DNA from: Lachnospiraceae bacterium
GTDB lineage: Bacteria > Bacillota > Clostridia > Lachnospirales > Lachnospiraceae
Length of the DNA: 64,000 nt
Assembly: GCA_017396555.1 (NCBI GenBank)
Contig: JAFQLS010000025.1
Span: forward strand, 1 to 64,000
Reading direction: 5' to 3'
Part shown: positions 3 to 52,663 of the stretch, one piece after another
Layout: each line of letters begins with the position of its first letter
Position numbering within the stretch: position 1 is the stretch's first letter
Notes under the pieces: model-generated
Databases searched by the model: none
Told to the model about the DNA's origin: nothing
Seen by the model: only the letters and a program-made list of their open reading frames with translations
Position numbers and translations under genes: made by a program

Positions 3-3000
3 GTTCCAGAAGATGTCCCAGTATTAGGTGGAACAACATTTAATATTGATTTAGGAGATATCGAGTTACCTTTCAGTGTTGAAATGAATAAGGACGGATA
101 TACTATAGAGATAGATGGACCTAGTAAGGAAAAAGAAATAATACCAAATAGGCTTTCTATTGGAATTGGTGTTACAGGTGAATTAGAAGGTTCGTTTGAT
201 AGTCCGGAAGTTTCGGGTTCTTTAGAAGTTGAGTTTACTGTTACAGGTGAGTGGGAACAGCAGTTTATGGTTGGACCAGTTCCAGCAGTTGTAGAGATTG
301 AAGTGGAAGGAAGTTTGTCAGCAACAGGTGAACTTATACTTAATTTCTCAAAAGAAGCAGAAGAAAAAATAAAAGGTACTTTGGAAGCCGCAATTGGTGC
401 CAGTGTAAGCTTATTTGCAGGTGTAGGAGTTGCGAATATTGCATCTATAGGTGTGTATGGTGAAGTTGGACTTGAATTCGGATTCGTTATTTTACCAGCG
501 AAAAATGCAGGATTAGAAAAAATTAGCTGGGGAGGAACTTTGGGATTAAAAGCTCAAGCTTTATTCTTGGAGGCAGAGTTACCATTGCTTGAGGGTGATG
601 ATTTTGTTATTTATCAACGTAAGAAAAAATATGAAGGTAACAGCATATCTTCGCCGGGAATGTCAATGTCTCAAATAGAAAGTGCTCTTGTTGATATGGA
701 TAATTACACGATATCACCGCTAACATCTACATCTACCAGAACTGAATGGTTAGGTGCAAATGTAACAGATACAAAAGGAACAATCCAGACGTTACAGGGT
801 GCTGCATATGACATGATGACACCTAAGTTAGTAACGGCTGGTGATACAACGCTTCTTATTTACGAAGATGAAGACACAAACGCATCAATTGCAAATAGAA
901 GCAGAATTAAGTATTCGGTATACAAGAATGGTAAATTTAACACACCGGCTTATGTCGAAAACACAGGATTTTCACAGTGTGGAGTTGATGTATATTCAAA
1001 CGGAGAAAACATATATATTATTTGGCAGGAAGCAAAGCAAAGCCTTGCAGATGATGTAACATTACTTGATACAGCAAAGGCGATAGAATTAAAGGCAGCA
1101 AAATATGATAGCGCAACTGGTAGATTTGTTTCTCTTGGAACAATTACAAATAATAATATGTACGAATCACAGCCACAGATTAGTGCTGACGATAATGGCG
1201 TATACGCTGTATGGTCTGAAAATAGTGTGAATAATGTATTTGGTGTTGAAGGTACAAATAAAATCTACAAATCCGCATATAACTATGCAGAGGGAAGCTG
1301 GAATAGCAGTGTAGTTGTTGAAGACGTAGCTAGGGTAGATGCATTAGATATGGGTATGTTATCAGGCGAAATACATATGGCATATGCAGATAATGAGTCT
1401 GGCACAGGAAAGATAGTAAATATTAGTACTGCTGCAAGTTCGTTGATTACAAATGCTACAAACGTTCAGTTTGGTTATGCTGGTACAGAAGAAGCAGTTA
1501 TTTGGCATAATGGTGCAAACCTTATGTATGCAGATGAAATGGGAATAGCTGGAAATGTACTCTATAACAAATCTACGGTGTTAGCTAACTCATATCAGTA
1601 TATAAGTGATACGTCAGGAAATAATAGTATTGTATATTCTTATACAAACGAAGGGAAATCGCAGGTATATATGTCGGATTATGATCCTATAACTAAGGAA
1701 TGGGGTAATGTTCAGGCGATAACTAATCAGAATGAATACCTTGAAAATGTTACAGGAACATATTCAAATGGAGAGTTAGTGCTTGCATTCAATCAGACAC
1801 AGGCAACAGTCACAGAAGAAACAGTAGAAACAGAAAATGACCTTTGCTGTATGAAGATTGGAAAAGAAACAAAGTTAATTTTAGAAGAAGTAAATTATAA
1901 CCTCGAAGAAGTAATACCTGGTGGAGAGGTAAAGCTTAATCTTCTTATGGCTAATAAAGGATTAAGAACAATAAAAGCAGAAGATATATTAATTACTGTT
2001 ACAGATGAAAATGGCAAAGTAAAAGCTAGTGCAACTGCATCTAAATCAATAATTGCAGGAACAAAAGAAACACAGGAAGTAGTTTTGAATCTTCCATATG
2101 CACTTGTAGCACTAGATTACAATATCAATGTAAGCTGTAATGGAAACAATATGAATGAAACCATAACACTTGGATACGCAGATTTAACAATAAATCCAAA
2201 AGTATGTGTAGACCATGGTGAATATGAAGTTAGAGCAAGCATAGGAAACAATGGTGTAGAGGCAGCAGACGGAAAGGTAATCTTCTATAATAAATATGAC
2301 GAGAGTCAGATATTTGGAGAAGAAAGCTTTGATGCGGTGAACTATGGTGAAAAAGCAGAAGTTGTATGTAAGCTTGATGACTCTATATATGATGGAAGTA
2401 AATCATTAACTGTGGGAATGAGAATAGAAACACCGGCAACTCAGTCAAATACAGATAATGATACAACAGGAATATATCTTGCAGGAAGAAAGAGTTCAAA
2501 TCCATATCTTGTAATCTTTGATTACGATATAGAAGGATATGAAAATGTAAGAAAATATGTAGAAGAGGGAAAGGGAGTAAAATTCCCAGAAACACCGGTT
2601 AAGGCAGGATATAAGTTCCTTGGTTGGTATAATGGAAATGTAAAATATACAGAGACAACCTCTATTACAGAAAATATTACATTAGTTGCAAAATATGAAA
2701 AAATTAAAGAGCCTGAAAAGAAACCAACTGTTAATAATGATAAATTGCCTAAAGTAAATTCTACTATCACAAAGGATGGTATAATTTATAAGGTAACTAA
2801 ATCAAATAAAACAGTAAAAACAGTTTCGGTACAAAAGTTAAGTAATATGAAAAAAACTTCAGTAAAGATACCGGCTACCATAAAAATAGAAGGTTATACA
2901 TACAAGGTAACAGAGATATCGAAAGAAGCTTTCAAAAATGCAAAAAAACTAAAGAGTATTACAATAGTAAGCAATAATATTACAAAGGTTGGTAAAAATG

Positions 3001-3488
3001 CATTTAAAAATATTCATAAGAAGGCGGAAATATATGTACCATCAAAAATGTTAAAGAAATACACAAAGCTATTCAAGAATAAAGGTCAGGCAAAGACTGT
3101 TAAAATTAAGTGTATTCTTCCAAAGAAAAATACAAAGAAAGTAATAGGAGGAATAGGCTACAAAATAACAAAATCTTCAAAGACAAACGGAACGGTAAGT
3201 GTATATAGTCTTGTTAATAAAAATAAAACCTCTGTAACAATACCGCAGACGATTAAGATTGACGGATATAAATTTAAGGTAACGGTTATAGAGAAAAATG
3301 CATTTAAAAATGCCAAAAAACTTAAAATGATAAATATAAAAACATTATATTTAAAGGCTGTAGGAAAAAATGCATTTAAAAATATTAACAAAAATGCAAA
3401 AATAAAGGTCCCTGCAAGTAAGTTTAAAGCATATAGGAAGTTACTTAAGAATAAGGGTCAGGCAAAAAAGGTTTCAATAACTAAATAA
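3..3488 (+). CDS. Large secreted repeat protein, 5' end outside window
   Basis: The frame is open from the first bases of the window (codons from position 3), so this is the C-terminal ~1161 residues of a larger gene whose start and signal peptide lie upstream. The visible part has a beta-rich N-terminal region, a stretch of propeller-like repeats (about 800-1850; motifs such as YAVWSE and IYIIWQE), a CARDB-like beta-sandwich (about 1870-2200), one InlB-type repeat (about 2510-2700, motif GYKFLGWY), and two tandem ~120-residue BspA-like leucine-rich units (about 2745-3110 and 3117-3485; AFKNAKKLK in each). Such modules are typical of surface or secreted proteins of gut Clostridia. The specific function is unknown. 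A strong terminator follows. Confidence 0.85.
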   Translation, partial: VPEDVPVLGGTTFNIDLGDIELPFSVEMNKDGYTIEIDGPSKEKEIIPNRLSIGIGVTGELEGSFDSPEVSGSLEVEFTVTGEWEQQFMVGPVPAVVEIEVEGSLSATGELILNFSKEAEEKIKGTLEAAIGASVSLFAGVGVANIASIGVYGEVGLEFGFVILPAKNAGLEKISWGGTLGLKAQALFLEAELPLLEGDDFVIYQRKKKYEGNSISSPGMSMSQIESALVDMDNYTISPLTSTSTRTEWLGANVTDTKGTIQTLQGAAYDMMTPKLVTAGDTTLLIYEDEDTNASIANRSRIKYSVYKNGKFNTPAYVENTGFSQCGVDVYSNGENIYIIWQEAKQSLADDVTLLDTAKAIELKAAKYDSATGRFVSLGTITNNNMYESQPQISADDNGVYAVWSENSVNNVFGVEGTNKIYKSAYNYAEGSWNSSVVVEDVARVDALDMGMLSGEIHMAYADNESGTGKIVNISTAASSLITNATNVQFGYAGTEEAVIWHNGANLMYADEMGIAGNVLYNKSTVLANSYQYISDTSGNNSIVYSYTNEGKSQVYMSDYDPITKEWGNVQAITNQNEYLENVTGTYSNGELVLAFNQTQATVTEETVETENDLCCMKIGKETKLILEEVNYNLEEVIPGGEVKLNLLMANKGLRTIKAEDILITVTDENGKVKASATASKSIIAGTKETQEVVLNLPYALVALDYNINVSCNGNNMNETITLGYADLTINPKVCVDHGEYEVRASIGNNGVEAADGKVIFYNKYDESQIFGEESFDAVNYGEKAEVVCKLDDSIYDGSKSLTVGMRIETPATQSNTDNDTTGIYLAGRKSSNPYLVIFDYDIEGYENVRKYVEEGKGVKFPETPVKAGYKFLGWYNGNVKYTETTSITENITLVAKYEKIKEPEKKPTVNNDKLPKVNSTITKDGIIYKVTKSNKTVKTVSVQKLSNMKKTSVKIPATIKIEGYTYKVTEISKEAFKNAKKLKSITIVSNNITKVGKNAFKNIHKKAEIYVPSKMLKKYTKLFKNKGQAKTVKIKCILPKKNTKKVIGGIGYKITKSSKTNGTVSVYSLVNKNKTSVTIPQTIKIDGYKFKVTVIEKNAFKNAKKLKMINIKTLYLKAVGKNAFKNINKNAKIKVPASKFKAYRKLLKNKGQAKKVSITK

Positions 3489-3493
3489 ATTTT

Positions 3494-3530
3494 AGAGTCT
3501 ACGATTGATATAATATCGTAGACTCTTTTT
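3494..3530 (+). terminator. Rho-independent terminator after the repeat protein
   Basis: Perfect 12-bp arms (AGAGTCTACGAT / ATCGTAGACTCT) with a 9-nt loop, followed by a T run. It lies six bases after the TAA of the preceding gene. Confidence 0.9.
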
Positions 3531-3537
3531 ATATTCC

Positions 3538-3566
3538 TTGCGATTTTATCTTTAATCAGATATAAT
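3538..3566 (+). promoter_or_regulatory. Sigma-A-type promoter for the cotH-ruvA-helicase unit
   Basis: TTGCGA (3538-3543), 17-nt spacer, TATAAT (3561-3566), 30 nt upstream of the lipoprotein start. A good ribosome binding site (AAAGGTGGG) follows. Confidence 0.75.
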
Positions 3567-3595
3567 AAATTAACGATAAGAAAGGTGGGAATAAT

Positions 3596-5071
3596 ATGAA
3601 AAAGCGTATTTTAGCTATGTTATTAGCTGCAAGTGTTGCTATATTAGGTGTAGGCTGTGAAACAGCTAATAACAATAAAGATAATAGTGAATCTAAAGCT
3701 CCTGATGCAGAATATTTATCAGAAGAAGAACAATTGTTTAATAAAATGTTTGATATTAATACATATGTAAAGATTGAGATAGATATATCTAATGAAGAGC
3801 TTATGAAAATTGAAGAAGATTATAATGTATATAGAAATCTTAATTCGAAATCTCCTATTTACAGAAAGGCTGATAAGGTAACATTTACTATCGGAGATGA
3901 GAAGTATGAGATAGAAGAGGTTGGTATAAGAATGAAGGGGAATACTTCAAGAACTTCGTTCTATAGTGAAGAAGAAGGTATGCATGATCTTGTACATTTT
4001 AAACTTAGTTTTGATGAGACTTTTGATGATCCTAAGTATTATGGTACTGATGCAAAGGTTTGGGAAAATGAAACTGATAAATTAGAGAGAGAAAAAAGAA
4101 AATTTGCTACTATGACAAGCATTGAACTTAAGTGGAATAAGAATTTTGATACAACATATGTTAGAGAAATTTATGCTAATGATATGTTTAGGGATTTTGG
4201 TTTGATGTCTCAGCATTGTAACGCAAGCAATTTTATATTATCAGGAACCAATATGGGAGTTTGGACAATCTATGAAGCTGTAGATAAACAATTTTTGAAG
4301 AAATACTATGGAAATAATGCAGAAATTGGAGATTTATATAAAGCGGCATGGTCAGCTTCTTATGGTAGTTGGCCACATTATGGTATAGATGATGAAGATG
4401 CAGGCAAGTCATATGTTTACGATTTGAAGACGAATAAAACAACATCAGATCATTCCTTGTTTAAGAATTTTATTGATGTGGTTAATGATAGAAGTGCTAC
4501 AAAAGAAACATATGAAACAGTTTTGGAAGCAGAAGACTGGGTAATGTTTAATGCTGTAAGTTATTTTGCAGGTAATCCGGATGATTTTAGAAATAATTAC
4601 AATAATCATTATGTGTATTTACAGCCTGATGGAAAAGCAAGATTCATTACATATGATAATGACAGAGTTTTCGGTATTACTGTAGACTGGAATCCTGAAG
4701 GAACAGGAATGACAGCAGTATCACCATTCTCAGAACTGGCAGATGGTCTTGGTCGTTTTCAGGAAAATCCTATTATTAGAAAAACAATTCTTGATGAAGA
4801 TGGATTTTACTATAAAGAGTACAAAGAAGCTTTAGCAGAAGTTGCGTCAAGTAAATGGCTTACAAATGAACATTTTACAAAGTATTATGAAGCAGTTAAG
4901 AATAATTATGAATCGTGTGTTCAGCCAGATAATAGTTATAAAAATGCTGAGAAGACAGATTTTAAATTCACAATGGAAGGCGAATATGACGCAGGACCTA
5001 ATATTAATATGTCATTTGAGGAATACGTGACAAGGAAAATGATTACATATAACGAAGCTATAGAGGAATAA
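3596..5071 (+). CDS. CotH-family lipoprotein (secreted kinase-like)
   Basis: 491 residues. The N-terminus is a lipoprotein signal (MKKRI, hydrophobic stretch, then VGC with Cys21), so the protein is probably anchored outside the membrane. The body matches CotH-type proteins: the RMKGNTS segment near residue 110 and the conserved YDNDRVFG motif near residue 355. CotH proteins are atypical protein kinases; the Bacillus one phosphorylates spore coat proteins, but many Clostridia carry secreted CotH proteins of unknown target. The start is fixed by AAAGGTGGG seven bases upstream. The gene heads a unit with ruvA (3-nt gap) and a DEAD-box helicase, an odd partnership. A second, unrelated-looking CotH protein lies at 35542. 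Confidence 0.88.
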   Translation: MKKRILAMLLAASVAILGVGCETANNNKDNSESKAPDAEYLSEEEQLFNKMFDINTYVKIEIDISNEELMKIEEDYNVYRNLNSKSPIYRKADKVTFTIGDEKYEIEEVGIRMKGNTSRTSFYSEEEGMHDLVHFKLSFDETFDDPKYYGTDAKVWENETDKLEREKRKFATMTSIELKWNKNFDTTYVREIYANDMFRDFGLMSQHCNASNFILSGTNMGVWTIYEAVDKQFLKKYYGNNAEIGDLYKAAWSASYGSWPHYGIDDEDAGKSYVYDLKTNKTTSDHSLFKNFIDVVNDRSATKETYETVLEAEDWVMFNAVSYFAGNPDDFRNNYNNHYVYLQPDGKARFITYDNDRVFGITVDWNPEGTGMTAVSPFSELADGLGRFQENPIIRKTILDEDGFYYKEYKEALAEVASSKWLTNEHFTKYYEAVKNNYESCVQPDNSYKNAEKTDFKFTMEGEYDAGPNINMSFEEYVTRKMITYNEAIEE

Positions 5072-7179: not shown

Positions 7180-7208
7180 TTGACTTTTATGACCACTATT
7201 GATAAAAT
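7180..7208 (+). promoter_or_regulatory. Promoter for the T-box leader
   Basis: TTGACT (7180-7185), 17-nt spacer, TAAAAT (7203-7208), three bases after the helicase stop. Transcription would start near 7215, just ahead of the T-box stem I. Confidence 0.75.
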
Positions 7209-7214
7209 GACACA

Positions 7215-7460
7215 TATTGAATAAATAAAGACTGTGATTAGGAGTATTAAGAGTACCAAATTTTCAGAGAGCTACCGGCTGGTGTGAGGTAGTAAGGAGG
7301 TCTCCCAACTCGCCTTTGAGTCCTTCCGGTGAATCTAAGTAGTCAGAAGCGTTTAATCTACGTTATAGGATAATAAGTGCATATACAATGGTATATGAAT
7401 TAGAGTGGTACCGCGAATGGAATGTCCATACGTCTCTATGTTGAGATGTATGGATTTTTT
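7215..7460 (+). promoter_or_regulatory. T-box leader (tRNA-sensing riboswitch), probably leucine
   Basis: The T-box signature AGAGTGGTACCGCG is at 7402-7415. Upstream is a stem I apical region with the AGAGAG and GGCTGGTGTGAG elements (about 7265-7289). Downstream is a terminator hairpin with 12-bp arms (7425-7436 / 7443-7454) and a TTTTTT run to 7460. A CTC triplet at 7309-7311 sits where a specifier is expected, which would be leucine, but the fold was judged by eye. The UGGU in the T-box fits an A discriminator, as in the tRNA-Leu of this window. T-boxes read through when the cognate tRNA is uncharged. The first gene downstream is a lipoprotein; leuS, the expected target, starts at 11767. 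Confidence 0.9.
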
Positions 7461-7465
7461 GTGAT

Positions 7466-7523
7466 AGCAACATGATTAATGTCAAACTATTGTATACTTT
7501 CAGCAGAAAGTATATTTGAATAG
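7466..7523 (+). repeat. 58-nt direct repeat, copy A (gene-end remnant)
   Basis: It aligns without gaps to 11691-11748, the last codons of the secreted protein gene, with mismatches only at 7473, 7476 and 7518; 41 consecutive bases (7477-7517) are identical. Read in the same frame it still encodes MSNYCILSAESIFE and a stop, but has a TGA where the intact copy has AGA. It begins six bases after the T-box terminator and looks like the 3' stub of a lost gene copy. Confidence 0.9.
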
Positions 7524-7539
7524 AGGGCGGATAAATCAA

Positions 7540-7962
7540 ATGAAAAAACTAGTATTAATCTTAATAAGTACATTAACAATATTTATGTCAGCCTGTGGAA
7601 ATACAAACGCTACGAAAGAAAGAGAACCATCAACCAGAGTGCCAAATTCAGTAGTAGGTAAGTGGTATGATAACGACCCTGACGAAGGTATGAGAATATG
7701 GGATTTTAATGACGACGGAATATATTATTTTACAAGTGAGAAAATGTATGGAAAAGAGGATGAAACATACGAAATATGGAGAGAAAATTATTCAGTAGAA
7801 GATAATATAATTTGCTTAAATGGGAGAAATATAGGTTTGGAATACACCAGTTATGGATTACGTTTAGTATATGATTCGGGATATGAGATAAAGTTATATG
7901 AATATAGAGAGGATGCAGTTAAACAGATAACTGACGAATATAAGGAAGAGACAGATAAATAG
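7540..7962 (+). CDS. Small lipoprotein, array member 1
   Basis: 140 residues. The ATG at 7540 is preferred over the in-frame TTG at 7516, which lies inside the direct repeat; GAGGGCGG sits ahead of the ATG. It has a lipoprotein signal peptide ending MSAC. After a conserved linker (KEREPSTRVPNSVVGKWY) comes a ~100-residue beta-rich module with WDFNDDGIYYF near the start and LYEYRED near the end. The GKW opening and alternating beta pattern recall lipocalin-like domains, but that is an inference; I do not recognise the family with certainty. It is the first of five tandem paralogs (7540-10597) and the first gene after the T-box. The first ~170 bases are almost identical to member 2. Confidence 0.85.
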   Translation: MKKLVLILISTLTIFMSACGNTNATKEREPSTRVPNSVVGKWYDNDPDEGMRIWDFNDDGIYYFTSEKMYGKEDETYEIWRENYSVEDNIICLNGRNIGLEYTSYGLRLVYDSGYEIKLYEYREDAVKQITDEYKEETDK

Positions 7963-7977
7963 AGGGTTGAAAATCAA

Positions 7978-8841
7978 ATGAAAAAACTAGTATTAATCTT
8001 AATAAGTACATTAACAATATTTATATCAGCCTGTGGAAATACAAACGCTACGAAAGAAAGAGAACCATCAACCAGAGTGCCAAATTCAGTAGTAGGTAAG
8101 TGGTATGACAATGATCCAGATGAGGGTATGAGAATATGGGATTTTAATGATGAGGGAATATATTATTTTACAAGTGAAAAAATGTATGGAAAAGAGGACG
8201 AAACATACGAAATATGGCGTGCAGAATATTCTATAGAGGGTGATACAATATATACATATAAAGAAGAGGCAACCCTAGAATATACAAGCTATGGATTTCG
8301 TCTAATATATGATTCGGGTTATGAAGTAAAGCTATACGAATATAGAGAAGATGCATTAGAACAGATATCTGAGGAAGATACGAAGGAAGAATATTATGAG
8401 AGTATTAAGGATGAGAATGGATGTGTAATAGAGGATGGAGTCCTTATAAGATATTATACAGAGGATAAGGAGATAACAATACCTGATAATGTAACAACTA
8501 TAGGTTCGGCAGTAATAGTAACAGAGTTAGAAAATATAGATAAGCTAACAATTCCCGGAACTGTAAAGAAACTTGAAAGAAGTGCATTTAATGAAATACC
8601 TCTTGGCAAAGTAATAATAGAAGAAGGAATAGAAGAAATAGGAGATTATGCATTTACAGATAGCTATTATACAGAGATACATGTGCCTGAATCAGTAAAT
8701 TATATAGGAGAGTTTGCTTTCAGATGCAGTGAACTAAATAATGCTGGTAAGATATATGTAAAGAAGGGTTCATATGCAGAAGAATATTTTAGTCAGTACA
8801 ATGGAGACTATGATGGTGCAAAGATAATAGTTCAGGAATAA
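7978..8841 (+). CDS. Lipoprotein with BspA-like repeat domain, array member 2
   Basis: 287 residues. The N-terminal half is the same module as member 1 (lipobox ISAC, GKWYDN, WDFNDEG, LYEYRED). The C-terminal ~150 residues are a leucine-rich BspA-type domain with the repeated pattern ITIPDNVTTIG, LTIPGTVKKLE and EIHVPESVNYIGEFAF. Such domains mediate surface contacts in other bacteria. It starts 15 bases after member 1. Members 2 and 3 share this extension nearly base for base, while 1, 4 and 5 lack it, so the array mixes two architectures. Confidence 0.87.
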   Translation: MKKLVLILISTLTIFISACGNTNATKEREPSTRVPNSVVGKWYDNDPDEGMRIWDFNDEGIYYFTSEKMYGKEDETYEIWRAEYSIEGDTIYTYKEEATLEYTSYGFRLIYDSGYEVKLYEYREDALEQISEEDTKEEYYESIKDENGCVIEDGVLIRYYTEDKEITIPDNVTTIGSAVIVTELENIDKLTIPGTVKKLERSAFNEIPLGKVIIEEGIEEIGDYAFTDSYYTEIHVPESVNYIGEFAFRCSELNNAGKIYVKKGSYAEEYFSQYNGDYDGAKIIVQE

Positions 8842-8860
8842 TAAAAGGGAGGAAAATCCA

Positions 8861-9724
8861 ATGAAAAAGGTTATATTAATCTTAATTAGTATATTAACAC
8901 TGCTTATGTCAGCGTGTGGAAATGCAAATAGTGAAAAAGAGAGAGAACCTTCAACAAGAGTACCAAATTCGGTAGTGGGTAAATGGTATGAATATAGTAG
9001 TGATGAGGGGATAAGTATATGGAGATTTGAAGAAAATGGTGTATTTTATTACGCTTCTGAAGAGGCTTTTAGAAAAGAAGATGAAAAAAATATTATTAGA
9101 AGACGCGAATATTCTATAGAGGGTAATATGATATTTGTGTTTAAGGAATATTTAAAGTTAGAATACACAAGCTATGGATTACGTTTGATATATGATTCGG
9201 GTTATGAAGTAAAGCTGTATGAATATAGAGAGGATGCATTAGAACAGATATCTGAGGAAGATACGCAAGAAGAATATTATGAGAGTATTAAGGATGAGAA
9301 TGGATGCGTAATAGAGGATGGAGTTCTTATAAGATATTATACAGAGGATAAGGAGATAACAATACCTGATAATGTAACAACTATAGGTTCAGCAGTAATA
9401 GTAACAGAGTTAGAAGATATAGATAAGCTAACAATTCCTGGAACTGTAAAGAAGATAGATAAAAGTGCATTTAATGAAACTCCACTTGGTAAAGTGATAA
9501 TAGAAGAGGGAGTGGAAGAAATAGGAGATTATGCATTTACAGATAGCTATTATACAGAGATACATATACCGGAATCAGTTAAGTATATAGGAGAGTTTGC
9601 ATTTAGATGTAGTGAACTAAATACTGATGGGAAGATATATATAAAGAAAGGTTCGTATGCAGAGGAATATTTTAGTCAGTATAATGGTGACTGCTATGGA
9701 GCAGAGATAATAGTTGAGGAATAG
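8861..9724 (+). CDS. Lipoprotein with BspA-like repeat domain, array member 3
   Basis: 287 residues, the same layout and length as member 2. The lipobox is MSAC. The first module is the most diverged of the five in its middle (EENGVFYYASEEAF), whereas the leucine-rich C-terminal half is nearly identical to member 2. This uneven divergence suggests duplication followed by selection on the first domain, or gene conversion across the second. AGGGAGGAAAA lies upstream of the ATG, 19 bases after member 2. Function unknown. Confidence 0.87.
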   Translation: MKKVILILISILTLLMSACGNANSEKEREPSTRVPNSVVGKWYEYSSDEGISIWRFEENGVFYYASEEAFRKEDEKNIIRRREYSIEGNMIFVFKEYLKLEYTSYGLRLIYDSGYEVKLYEYREDALEQISEEDTQEEYYESIKDENGCVIEDGVLIRYYTEDKEITIPDNVTTIGSAVIVTELEDIDKLTIPGTVKKIDKSAFNETPLGKVIIEEGVEEIGDYAFTDSYYTEIHIPESVKYIGEFAFRCSELNTDGKIYIKKGSYAEEYFSQYNGDCYGAEIIVEE

Positions 9725-9738
9725 GGCGGATAATCTAA

Positions 9739-10149
9739 ATGAAAAGAATATTATTAATCATAATCAGCACATTAGCAATATTTATATTAGCCTGTGGAAA
9801 CACAAACACTACGAAAGAGAGAGAACCCTCTACAAGAGTACCAAACTCGGTAGTAGGTAAATGGTATGAATATAGTAGTGATGAGGGTATGAGAATATGG
9901 GATTTTAATGATGAGGGAATATATTATTTTGATAATGAAGAAATGTATGGAAAAGAGGACGAAACATACGAGATTGAGAGGTATGAATATTCTATAGAGG
10001 GTGATACAATATATATGTATAAAAGGGATGCAAGGATTGAGTATACAAGCTATGGATTTAGAATAGTATATGATTCTGGATACGAGATAAAACTATACGA
10101 ATATAGAGAAGATGCAGAAAAACAAATACCTGATGAATATAAGGAATAA
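9739..10149 (+). CDS. Small lipoprotein, array member 4
   Basis: 136 residues with only the N-terminal module (lipobox ILAC, GKWYEY, WDFNDEGIYYF, LYEYRED). Its 3' end matches that of member 1, but an in-frame TAA arrives a few codons earlier (GGAATAAACA against GGAAGAGACA), so the tail is trimmed. GGGCGG precedes the ATG, 14 bases after member 3. Function unknown; it is probably anchored on the outer face of the membrane. Confidence 0.85.
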   Translation: MKRILLIIISTLAIFILACGNTNTTKEREPSTRVPNSVVGKWYEYSSDEGMRIWDFNDEGIYYFDNEEMYGKEDETYEIERYEYSIEGDTIYMYKRDARIEYTSYGFRIVYDSGYEIKLYEYREDAEKQIPDEYKE

Positions 10150-10177
10150 ACAGATAAATAGAGGGAGGAAAAATCAA

Positions 10178-10597
10178 ATGAAAAAACTATTATTAATCTT
10201 AATAAGTACATTAACAATATTTATGTCAGCTTGTGGAAACACAGACACTACAAAAGAAAGAGAACCATCAACCAGAGTTCCAAATTCAGTAGTAGGTAAG
10301 TGGTATGACAATGATCCTGATGAGGGAATGAGGATATGGGATTTTAATGACAAAGGTATATATTATTTTACTACTGAAGATGATTATGGAAAAGAAGATG
10401 AAACCTTTTCAATTAGAAGACGTGAATATTCTATAGAAGGCAACAAAATTCGTTTAGAAAGAAGGGAGGTAACTTTGGAATATACCAGTTATGGAATTCG
10501 GTTAATATACGATTCGGGATATGAGATAAAATTATATGAATACAGAGAGGATGCAGTAAAACTGTTATCTGATGAAGAAATAACAGATACATATTAA
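10178..10597 (+). CDS. Small lipoprotein, array member 5
   Basis: 139 residues. The ATG at 10178 is chosen because GAGGGAGGAAAA lies directly before it and because it aligns with the starts of the other four members; an upstream ATG at 10112 overlaps the end of member 4 and lacks a good site. Lipobox MSAC, then the shared linker and single beta-rich module, ending LYEYREDAVKLLSD. It is followed 26 bases later by the secreted protein gene. Function unknown. Confidence 0.85.
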   Translation: MKKLLLILISTLTIFMSACGNTDTTKEREPSTRVPNSVVGKWYDNDPDEGMRIWDFNDKGIYYFTTEDDYGKEDETFSIRRREYSIEGNKIRLERREVTLEYTSYGIRLIYDSGYEIKLYEYREDAVKLLSDEEITDTY

Positions 10598-10623
10598 TAA
10601 TAAGGAGAGGAAGAATTATAATT

Positions 10624-11748
10624 ATGAAATACTTAAAGATAGTATTAATGGGAATATTAATGGTAATAATGTTTAATGTGATGACAATAAGAGCAGAGGC
10701 AGCAACAAAAACAGAGGATGGATATACATATTCTACTGATGGAACACGTACATCATATACATTAATTTACGAAGAACGTATTAGTAATTATAAAGTTGTA
10801 GAAAGAGATATTGAAACAAGTAAAAAGGAAAACAATATTTTGTCTGACTATATGATAGCTTATAACACCCAATATACCATTCCAGGACTACGTAATACGA
10901 ACGTCCTTGGTGAAAATTGTGATACAATGATACCACAAGGCATATGCAGAATGGATAATTACATACTAGTTACAGCCTACGATTACGAAGAAGAATTCAA
11001 ATCAGTTATATATGTAATTGATACAAGTGGAAAATTACAGGCAACCTTAGTATATAACAAGAAATGTCATATGGGTGGAATAGCATATGACGGAAAATAT
11101 GTATGGATAGCAGAAGGTGGAAAAGGAAAATATAAGAATGGCGTTGGAGCAATTAGTAAGTCCGTTATATTAGAGGCTGTAAAGATTTCAAAAGCAAAAG
11201 GTGCCAAATCAATAAAGCTTAAAAATATAAAATGGACACAGGCAAAAGAACTTGAAAGCACAAGCTATTGTACATATTTTGATAATAAGCTATGGATTGG
11301 AACATTTGATAAACATAATAGTAGCGATATATATGGGTACATAACCAATTGTTCAGGTAGCAAACCTACATTAAATCCGTGCAGATATATATTGACACGT
11401 ATGAGAACACAAGGTATAACTTTTTATAAAGATTCTAGTGGAGTATATCTTGGGGTATCAACATCATACGGAAGGAAAAATGATTCTGTTATCAGATGTT
11501 ATAAATTAGACGACTATTATGCACCGGAATTTACTGAAAATGGAGTGCCGGAGATATGGTTAGAATCAGCATACAGAACAATAACATTACCGCCCATGTT
11601 AGAGCAAATAACCGTGCATGGTGTTTTTATGTATGTTATATTTGAATCAGGAGCCAGACCATATGTGGATGGTTCTGATGGTAATGGAAAAGCAACAAGA
11701 GTAATGTCAAACTATTGTATACTTTCAGCAGAAAGTATATTTAAATAG
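10624..11748 (+). CDS. Secreted protein, propeller-like, unknown function
   Basis: 374 residues with a Sec signal peptide (hydrophobic core, then RAEAATK near residue 27). The body has motifs such as YDGKYVWIAEGG and YFDNKLWIGTF that look like beta-propeller blades. I do not recognise a catalytic site and do not assign a function. It lies between the lipoprotein array and leuS; the leuS ribosome binding site follows its stop directly. Its last 58 bases are repeated at 7466-7523, right after the T-box, so a second copy probably once existed there. Confidence 0.8.
   Translation: MKYLKIVLMGILMVIMFNVMTIRAEAATKTEDGYTYSTDGTRTSYTLIYEERISNYKVVERDIETSKKENNILSDYMIAYNTQYTIPGLRNTNVLGENCDTMIPQGICRMDNYILVTAYDYEEEFKSVIYVIDTSGKLQATLVYNKKCHMGGIAYDGKYVWIAEGGKGKYKNGVGAISKSVILEAVKISKAKGAKSIKLKNIKWTQAKELESTSYCTYFDNKLWIGTFDKHNSSDIYGYITNCSGSKPTLNPCRYILTRMRTQGITFYKDSSGVYLGVSTSYGRKNDSVIRCYKLDDYYAPEFTENGVPEIWLESAYRTITLPPMLEQITVHGVFMYVIFESGARPYVDGSDGNGKATRVMSNYCILSAESIFK
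11691..11748 (+). repeat. 58-nt direct repeat, copy B (end of intact gene)
   Basis: Partner of 7466-7523 (55 of 58 bases identical). It forms the last 18 codons and the stop of the secreted protein gene. Recombination between the copies would remove about 4.2 kb containing all five lipoproteins and the secreted protein, joining the T-box to leuS. Confidence 0.9.
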
Positions 11749-11766: not shown

Positions 11767-14184
11767 ATGGAAAAAATGTATTCGCCAAAAGTAATTGAAA
11801 AAAAATGGCACAAGATTTGGGATGCTGAGAAAGCATTTGCTGCTACAGAGGATTACTCTAAGCCAAAGTACTACGCTTTAGTAGAATTCCCATATCCATC
11901 TGGTCAGGGACTTCATGTAGGACACCCAAGACCGTATACTGCACTTGATATAGTTGCAAGAAAGAGAAGGATGCAGGGATATAACGTATTATATCCAATG
12001 GGTTGGGACGCATTTGGTCTTCCAACTGAGAACTATGCGATTCAGAACAAGATTCATCCAAGAATCGTTACAGAGAATAACGTTCAGAGATTCAAGGAAC
12101 AGTTACAGTCACTTGGTTACTCGTTTGATTGGGACAGAGAAATTAACACAACTGATCCTGATTATTACAAATGGACACAGTGGATATTTATGAAGTTATT
12201 CAAGGAAGGCTTAGCTTATAAGAAGGAAATGCCAATTAACTGGTGTACATCTTGTAAGGTTGGTCTTGCAAATGAAGAGGTTGTTAATGGCGTATGTGAG
12301 CGTTGTGGTAGCGAAGTTGTTCGTAAGGTTAAGAGCGAATGGATGCTTAAGATAACAGAATACGCTGACAAATTAATCGACGGCTTAAATGATGTGGATT
12401 ATATTGAAAAGGTTAAAGTATCACAGGTTAACTGGATTGGACGTTCAGAAGGTGCTGAAGTAGATTTTGCTCTTGCTGGAAAGGAAGATAAGCTTCGTGT
12501 GTATACAACAAGACCTGATACATTATTTGGTGCTACATATATGGTAGTTTCACCGGAGCATCCATATATTGACAAATACCAGTCAGAAATCTCAAATTGG
12601 GACGAAATAATTGCATACCGTGAGGCGGCTGCTAAGAAGTCAGAATTTGAGAGAACAGAATTAGTTAAAGAGAAGACAGGTGTGGTTCTTGATGGTCTTA
12701 AAGCAATTAATCCTGTTAACGGCAAAGAAATTCCTATCTGGATATCAGACTATGTACTTATGACATATGGTACAGGTGCTATTATGGCTGTACCTGCTCA
12801 TGATGACAGAGACTGGGATTTTGCTAAGAAATTTAATCTTCCAATGATTCAGGTTGTTGAAGGAACAGAAGGAGCTGTAGACATTAATGAAGCTGCATTT
12901 ACAGATGTAGCTACAGGTAAGCTTATCAATTCTGATTTCTTAAATGGACTTGAAGTAACAGATGCTAAGGAAAAAATGAAAGAATTCCTTGAAGAAAAGG
13001 GAATTGGTAATAGAAAAGTAAATTATAAGTTAAGAGACTGGGTATTCTCTAGACAGCGCTATTGGGGAGAACCTATTCCAATTGTTGAATGTGATAAATG
13101 TGGATATGTAGCAATTGATGAAAGTGAGCTTCCATTAATGCTTCCGGAGGTTGATAGTTATATGCCTACAGATAATGGTGAATCACCACTGGCAGCAATG
13201 ACTGACTGGGTTAATACAATATGTCCATGCTGTGGTGGCCCTGCTAAGAGAGAGACAGATACAATGCCACAGTGGGCAGGTTCTTCATGGTATTTCTTAA
13301 GATACACAGACCCTAAGAATACAGAGGCACTTGCAAGCAAGGAAGCACTTGATTACTGGTTACCAATAGACTGGTATAATGGTGGTATGGAGCATACAAC
13401 ACTTCATTTATTATATTCTCGTTTCTGGCATAAGTTCTTGTATGACCAGAAGGTAGTACCTACACATGAGCCATATCAGAAGAGAACTTCACATGGTATG
13501 ATTCTTGGAGAAAATGGCGAGAAGATGTCAAAGTCAAGAGGAAATGTAGTTAATCCTGATGATATAGTAAATGAATTTGGTGCAGACACACTTCGTACTT
13601 ATGAAATGTTTATTGGTGCATTTGAACTTAGTGCTTCATGGTCACAGGATGGTGTTAAGGGATGCCGTCGTTTCCTTGACAGAGTATGGAAACTTATGGA
13701 TATTGTTAGTGATGAAGATGGTTATTCTAGTGATATGGAAACTAAGATGCATCAGACAATAAAGAAGGTTAGCAATGATTTTGAAAATCTTAAATTCAAC
13801 ACAGCTATTGCAGCAATGATGGCTCTTATTAATGATTTCTATAAAAAAGATTCAGTTACAAAGGGAGAACTTAAGACATTAATTACACTTTTAAATCCTG
13901 TTGCACCACATATGACAGAAGAAATGTGGGAAATGCTTGGATTTGAAGGAAGATTGTACCAGACAGCATGGCCTGAATATGATGAGGCTAAGACTGTAGA
14001 ATCTACAGTTGAAATTGCTGTTCAGATAAATGGTAAAACTAAGACTACTTTAGCTATTGGCAAGGATGATCCAAAGGATGATGTAATTGCCAAAGCAAAG
14101 GAAGCCTTAGGAGATAAACTTAATGGAACAATTGTTAAGGAAATTTATGTTCCTGGAAGAATTGTTAACATTGTACAAAAATAA
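11767..14184 (+). CDS. leuS: Leucine--tRNA ligase
   Basis: 805 residues, normal for bacterial LeuRS. It charges tRNA-Leu with leucine. Class I signatures are clear: the HIGH-type motif HVGHPRPYT near residue 49 and KMSKS near residue 577. The CP1 editing domain shows [12 protein letters not shown], and two CxxC pairs (CTSC, CERC) mark a zinc-ribbon insertion. AAGGAGGAAGAAAG precedes the ATG. There is no terminator or clear promoter between the secreted protein gene and leuS, so its transcription probably depends on the T-box promoter at 7180, 4.6 kb upstream. Confidence 0.97.
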
Positions 14185-52580: not shown

Positions 52581-52663
52581 TGCAGGAGATGGGACTTGAA
52601 CCCACACGTGGTTGCCCACGTCAGATTTTGAGTCTGATGCGTCTGCCATTCCGCCACTCCTGC
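52581..52663 (-). tRNA. tRNA-Leu (anticodon CAA)
   Basis: 83 nt on the minus strand. Acceptor stem GCAGGAG / CTCCTGC, anticodon stem TCAGA / TCTGA with loop CTCAAAA giving anticodon CAA (reads TTG), a long class II variable arm (CGTGGGCAACCACG), T arm with GGTTCAAGTCC, discriminator A. CCA is not encoded. It has its own promoter and terminator. Confidence 0.95.

Follow-up and report, generated by a model that had tools for sequence, protein, structure and literature searches.

Organization of the leuS locus

We examined the first 64,000 nucleotides (the window) of a 183,687-base contig (JAFQLS010000025.1, here C6) from the draft genome of a Lachnospiraceae bacterium (GCA_017396555.1; 2.34 Mb, 57 contigs, 85% complete), in which a cassette of six surface-protein genes lies between a leucyl T-box leader and leuS, the leucyl-tRNA synthetase gene, and carries a 58-nt direct repeat at its two ends. 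The order on the forward strand is T-box, the first repeat copy (copy A), five lipoprotein genes (lip1–lip5), an intact secreted-protein gene (SEC) that ends in the second repeat copy (copy B), and leuS. SEC also names the secreted-protein family; a SEC gene plus a lipoprotein gene, often with a BspA-type leucine-rich repeat (LRR) domain, constitutes a module. The repeat is probably a by-product of birth-and-death evolution in this surface-protein family, one module of which became lodged between leader and synthetase gene.

The leader (7225–7440) matches the T-box model RF00230 over its full length (1–219 of 219) with 117.2 bits against a gathering score of 93, and its specifier, read by eye, is probably the leucine codon CUC. 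A terminator-like hairpin (7424–7455) with a T run (7455–7460) closes it, together spanning 7424–7460. A promoter-like site (7180–7208; TTGACT, 17-nt spacer, TAAAAT, with TG before the -10 element) lies ahead of the leader, a consensus match supported by its position; the promoter scan as a whole returned 24 matches where 28.8 were expected in shuffled sequences, and so no excess. PMC2494555 describes T-box control as most widespread for ileS, leuS, and valS. The locus shares with other T-box-leuS loci a full-length T-box with a terminator on the same strand as leuS, but differs in having six unrelated surface-protein genes between leader and leuS. Nothing terminator-like was found on the forward strand between the T-box terminator and leuS, so read-through from the T-box across the cassette into leuS would be expected, and with it a leucine-tRNA-responsive expression of all six surface proteins. 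The sole tRNA gene in the window (52581–52663) encodes a tRNA-Leu with anticodon CAA; a CUC specifier would need another isoacceptor.

The five lipoprotein open reading frames (ORFs) all start in lipoprotein fashion with a conserved cysteine, judged by eye; the initial annotation had likewise counted five lipoproteins. They lie at 7540–7962 (lip1), 7978–8841 (lip2), 8861–9724 (lip3), 9739–10149 (lip4), and 10178–10597 (lip5). A C-terminal BspA-type LRR_5 domain (cut-off 27.7 bits) is present in lip2 (60.9 bits, E=1.5e-16) and an LRR_5 domain in lip3 (64 bits, E=1.6e-17), and none was found in the domain scans of the three short ones, lip1, lip4, and lip5. LRR_5 also occurs in both other lipoproteins of the family that were scanned, all seven paralogs from the same genome in our lipoprotein alignment (A2) span the LRR region, and solved LRR chains such as 4fd0 match that region. 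The A2 profile finds matches in 29 of 61 genomes at 1e-8, this genome included; among the matches listed outside this genome, only the common LRR part is covered.

The SEC gene (10624–11748) encodes 374 amino acids with a signal-like start, judged by eye, and a borderline DUF6454 match (23.9 bits, cut-off 22.3). DUF6454 scores in the SEC paralogs on contigs C45 and C27 were 16.6 and 12.4 bits, and no match up to E 0.1 was found in the relatives at loci L117, from a goat-colon metagenome-assembled genome (MAG), and L118. A SEC profile searched against the PDB returned a single match (E 0.33). The leuS gene (11767–14184; named by homology, by eye) begins 18 nt past the SEC stop codon. The leucine content of the cassette proteins (3.7–7.9%) shows no outlier relative to four neighbouring proteins (5.4–6.7%).

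The 58-nt direct repeat

Copy A (7466–7523) and copy B (11691–11748) are identical at 55 of 58 positions without gaps. They differ at 7473/11698 (T/A), 7476/11701 (T/G), and 7518/11743 (G/A), and an identical run of 41 bases begins at 7477/11702. Relaxing the stringency lengthens the match to 75 nt (88% identity) or 93 nt (86%). About 7e-14 exact 41-base pairs would be expected by chance in 64 kb of the same composition and the next-best ungapped matches to copy A in the window reach only 33/58 on the forward and 36/58 on the reverse strand, so the repeat is real. The coordinates and identities given in the initial annotation were exact on rechecking, as was its placement of copy B in the last codons of the intact 374-codon ORF. 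Its description of copy A as a stub with a TGA behind the T-box terminator also holds: the T at 7473 creates an in-frame TGA, and copy A starts five bases past the terminator T run.

The repeat is not an isolated feature of the cassette. Exact direct repeats of at least 25 nt number 20 in the 64 kb, every one of them inside the cassette, and by length the 41-nt pair ranks no higher than sixth, behind repeats of 83, 65, 54, 51, and 51 nt that link lipoprotein genes at closer spacing. The predicted folding energies of the two 58-mers, taken without a shuffled control, are -12.7 and -11.2 kcal/mol; a 22-nt palindrome within them, which by eye is not preserved in other SEC ends, was given no importance.

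The 58-mer encodes the SEC C-terminus and is homologous to SEC gene ends elsewhere in the genome: over this region the C6 and C45 SEC genes agree at 45 of 58 positions, and copy A and the C45 gene at 42 of 58. Since the repeat is SEC coding sequence common to paralogs, it derives from the cassette and is not a duplicated target. Copy A also occupies the position usual for a SEC gene followed by a lipoprotein gene. It ends 16 nt before lip1, and the distance from the stop of intact or damaged SEC copies to the next lipoprotein start is 11 nt at C51, 15 and 20 nt at two C27 loci (the latter counted by eye), 14 nt at C38, 17 nt at C28, and 13 nt at L117.

Comparable remnants occur at other loci of the genome. 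The last 37 amino acids of a SEC protein precede a lipoprotein gene at C27, and at C28 a SEC gene has suffered a large internal loss with most of its middle missing. At C45, 68 nt of an LRR-lipoprotein fragment are 98.5% identical to part of the intact gene that follows, and C46 has at its edge an LRR fragment preceded by a riboswitch (details of all four by eye). The C38 copy and one C46 copy of SEC run off contig ends and were left out of this count. Given these remnants, copy A is most likely a scar of gene birth and death, the leftover 3' end of a SEC gene. The proposal in the initial annotation that the 58-mers are special brackets of the cassette is not supported by this comparison, as the repeat is cassette coding sequence of a kind that left similar traces at other SEC/lipoprotein loci.

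Divergence and exchange within the array

The lipoprotein genes have diverged from one another far more than the two 58-mers have. Synonymous-site differences between lipoprotein pairs within the array amount to 32–51%, and those between the C6 and C45 SEC genes to 45%. By eye, none of the three differences between the 58-mers is synonymous, an outcome with a probability of ~0.007–0.015 at the lowest lipoprotein divergence (11–13 synonymous sites, a rough estimate). Because the 58-mers differ at three bases only and the array is 32–51% divergent at synonymous sites, copy A appears to be younger than the lipoprotein array or to have been homogenized later, and it would therefore hold no record of how the array arose. 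Of the earlier suggestion that the cassette arose by duplication in the leader-leuS gap, what stands is an addition in that gap, a SEC-derived copy A, and a region shaped by duplication.

The stretch 7533–7670, which includes the start of lip1, matches the start of lip2 at 137 of 138 positions, and the next 148 nt at only 122. In a permutation test of 15 pairs, long concordant runs were significant after correction for lip1-lip2, lip2-lip3, lip2-lip4, and lip3-lip4, and likewise for lip3 and lip4 against the C45 copy. These patterns fit repeated exchange between lipoprotein copies.

The ratio of nonsynonymous to synonymous change (dN/dS) is 0.21–0.38 for the 15 lipoprotein pairs. Among six SEC pairs it is 0.19 for C6/C45 and 0.34–0.46 for the five more distant ones. 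With all values in the range 0.19–0.46, the genes are under purifying selection and in use.

The leuS locus in other genomes

Every one of the 61 genomes searched (this genome and 60 relatives) has a leuS match. We searched for T-boxes upstream of leuS in 33 other genomes, namely 29 of the 60 relatives (loci L042–L070) and four MAGs. A T-box over the cut-off was present at 15 of these 33 loci, 46–209 nt from leuS, compared with a gap of 4,326 nt here; the other 18 had none over the cut-off. Five other T-boxes of this genome (on C41, C3, C45, C2, and C5, two of them below the cut-off) lie 42–126 nt before the next ORF, and these ORFs, judged by eye, resemble valS, pheS, thrS, trpB, and ileS. 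At C51 there is a seventh match, a weak one, which overlaps a thrS ORF (named by NCBIfam) at its start.

SEC and lipoprotein queries were run on 78 loci, comprising the leuS loci of this genome and 34 others (many duplicated) and 24 gyrB-like loci (one from this genome). They matched the leuS and gyrB loci of this genome and otherwise distant SEC relatives only. Comparison of the locus across related genomes thus found no cassette-type lipoprotein gene and no close SEC gene at leuS in any of the 34. The 60 relatives include no genus-mate of this genome. A set of 397 genomes of the family, which contains this one, yields SEC matches at 1e-20 in 24 other genomes; the matches listed have 29–38% identity, and no genus-mate is among them. 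A single-sequence SEC search of contigs from named genomes found no relative; a search with our SEC alignment (A1) found four, all of them MAGs of Lachnospiraceae, and the cassette is absent at leuS in all four. The colon of a goat was the source of one of these MAGs and that of dairy cattle the source of another, so the bacterium studied here is very probably a gut Lachnospiraceae as well. We considered the SEC genes near leuS in genomes G423 and G424 as a parallel and rejected them, because they sit ~11 kb from leuS on its upstream side, among other genes, and no T-box there exceeds the cut-off. A narrow literature search turned up no report of lipoprotein genes placed between a T-box and leuS. 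From these comparisons the cassette looks like a lineage-specific addition in the leader-leuS gap.

Dispersed modules and their leaders

Related modules or fragments occur at about eight other loci of the genome, one directly before gyrB and others behind cyclic di-GMP (c-di-GMP)-I riboswitches. The C45 module lies between a GNAT-like gene and gyrB (named by NCBIfam); in genome G014 the same flanks (64% identity for the GNAT-like protein, 86% for gyrB) enclose a phosphatase-like gene (by eye) and no module. The gyrB-linked module (L021:7741-9919) consists of an LRR-lipoprotein gene and a SEC gene; 15 nt separate it from gyrB, and a lipoprotein fragment borders it upstream. A stretch of secreted-protein and adenylation/acyl-carrier-like genes at L022:7940-17101 contains two lipoprotein modules (by eye).

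The genome holds eight c-di-GMP-I riboswitches, three of which directly precede family members (L023:3517-3641, forward; L024:958-1049, reverse; G000:C46:89628-89722, forward). The linked members are the SEC gene at C51 and, on C46, a SEC gene and the LRR-lipoprotein fragment at the opposite end of that contig. No c-di-GMP riboswitch was found near SEC relatives at 34 loci of other genomes (some duplicated; gathering scores, then E 0.01), nor in L117 and L118. SEC relatives also occur in 41 plasmid records (40 from Enterococcus, one from Latilactobacillus; 28 of the 41 predicted conjugative), and these are distant, with 26.8–28.5% identity among the best 20 of 41. A tentative and rather doubtful extension is that the modules form a self-contained surface unit that has repeatedly settled behind RNA leaders or essential genes; the family would then answer to charged tRNA-Leu at leuS and to c-di-GMP at two or three loci and ride with gyrB, and such tethering would protect it from loss.

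The region is rich in surface-type proteins upstream of the leader too: 84–5068 encodes a protein of 1,134 aa that matches LRR_5 and List_Bact repeats, along with one of the CotH family.

Origin of the cassette and its repeat

Under the birth-and-death reading, one of the dispersed SEC and lipoprotein modules of this genome came to sit between the leucyl T-box and leuS, its end 18 nt upstream of the latter. Tandem duplication would have raised the number of its lipoprotein genes from one to five, the copies exchanging sequence with one another. A second SEC gene would formerly have preceded lip1, and copy A would be what survives of its 3' end, a sequence that was either duplicated from the intact SEC gene or homogenized with it in recent times. 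When charged tRNA-Leu is low, read-through of the leader would yield the six surface proteins together with leuS. We infer this order of events, the co-transcription, and the leucine response. Several observations weigh against the scheme. Copy A is only 58 nt long and an intact upstream SEC gene is not directly seen; the two 58-mers are far closer to each other than the lipoprotein genes are among themselves, which requires a late duplication or conversion. Nine of the 15 lipoprotein pairs lack significant concordant runs after correction, and uneven constraint along a gene, which the permutation test leaves in, can mimic such runs. Distant SEC relatives (27–31% identity) occur near leuS in genomes G001 and G026, the upstream spans compared are unequal (mostly ~1–1.5 kb, with some of the 20 longer stretches reaching ~8 kb), and the genome itself is a draft (85% complete, 57 contigs). 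Eight weak forward-strand promoter-like matches lie inside the cassette, one of them (10/12) just ahead of SEC, and internal promoters may be present. The relatives in G001 and G026 (L075:4687-5985 and L083:17155-18561) stand in other gene contexts and are possibly chance matches.

Copy A may never have been part of a whole second gene. A short tract from the SEC 3' end could have been copied upstream by template switching or aberrant conversion, perhaps along with the 5' half of lip1, a possibility supported by the freshness of both copy A and the neighbouring 7533–7670 stretch (137/138 to lip2), where the next 148 nt of lip1 retain only 122 matches. We regard it as rather unlikely, since copy A sits in the usual SEC-to-lipoprotein position, longer SEC remnants exist at other loci, and a lost gene is the simpler account. 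In the model of the initial annotation, recombination between the 58-mers adds or removes the unit they enclose; the cassette would then toggle in the population, and its deletion would rejoin the T-box to leuS. The 41 identical bases do exceed the 23–27 nt threshold given for RecA-dependent recombination in PMC3637634, and the relatives examined have no cassette at leuS. However, this assembly contains one leuS with one T-box before it, with no deleted or multiplied allele and no 7523/11749 junction seen. The five longer and closer array repeats would contract first, deletion between short repeats being described as falling with distance (PMC3637634), and purifying selection on SEC and the lipoproteins favours retention. 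Partial contraction of the array is likelier than whole-cassette loss, because the lipoprotein repeats are longer and closer, and a toggling cassette is in our view improbable, its deletion possible yet unproven.

An integrating or transposing element, past or present, with the 58-mers as its ends would account for direct repeats on both sides, for related modules at many loci, and for a GNAT-gyrB interval that holds a module here and none in G014. Yet the repeat is SEC C-terminal coding sequence and not target, and a target-site duplication or att site was rejected on that ground. At the limits used, the six genes gave no match to a recombinase or transposase family, the internal repeat of the C45 stretch is an LRR fragment and not a SEC end, and neither phage records nor a pattern scan of viral contigs turned up a relative, so a phage or viral origin was discarded. 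We consider a mobile element very improbable.

Likely function

The likeliest role of SEC and the lipoproteins would be surface display or substrate binding. With BspA-type LRR proteins they share the LRR_5 domain of lip2 and lip3, but they differ in being short and lipid-anchored (by eye), in having an N-terminal domain of no assigned family, and in the absence of LRRs from lip1, lip4, and lip5. A second likeness is to the Staphylococcus lpl/tilA loci, described as tandem non-identical lipoprotein genes with high-identity blocks, shuffling, copy variation, and a secreted-protein gene at the 3' end (PMC4470592, PMC10730906). Shared here are the tandem non-identical lipoprotein paralogs with signs of exchange (which uneven constraint could mimic) and the 3' secreted-protein gene. 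Different here are the lack of DUF576, the lpl/TilA Pfam domain, for which no match up to E 0.1 was found in the five lipoproteins, the BspA-type LRRs of some copies, and the T-box/tRNA-synthetase setting. For esaG/tipC, loss and expansion are reported through recombination between conserved blocks of tandem paralogues (PMC9484751). The likeness is in the tandem paralogues with conserved blocks; a sequence relation was checked against family libraries only, and immunity here would be an analogy.

By that analogy, SEC could be a secreted antagonist and the lipoproteins its immunity proteins, as with Staphylococcus TslA/TilA. An array of non-identical lipoproteins that was shaped by exchange and adjoins a secreted protein resembles the TslA/TilA loci as described (PMC10730906), and the array recalls the esaG strings (PMC9484751). 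We think this function unlikely, as the domain scans of the six genes returned neither a toxin family nor DUF576, lip2, lip3, and the aligned paralogs of this genome carry BspA-type LRRs typical of surface proteins, and the c-di-GMP-I riboswitches before three family members fit a surface role.

Significance

The locus offers a caution, in that short direct repeats around a gene array are not necessarily the borders of a mobile element; here one of them is most likely a gene remnant. It is noteworthy for a surface-protein array, apparently specific to this lineage, that is set within a T-box-leuS unit while related modules elsewhere in the genome stand behind other kinds of RNA leader. A T-box normally serves tRNA charging, and here such an array sits behind one. 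If the genes are co-regulated, a cell starved of amino acids would change its surface, in what is very probably a gut bacterium, and paralogs elsewhere in its genome may answer to c-di-GMP.

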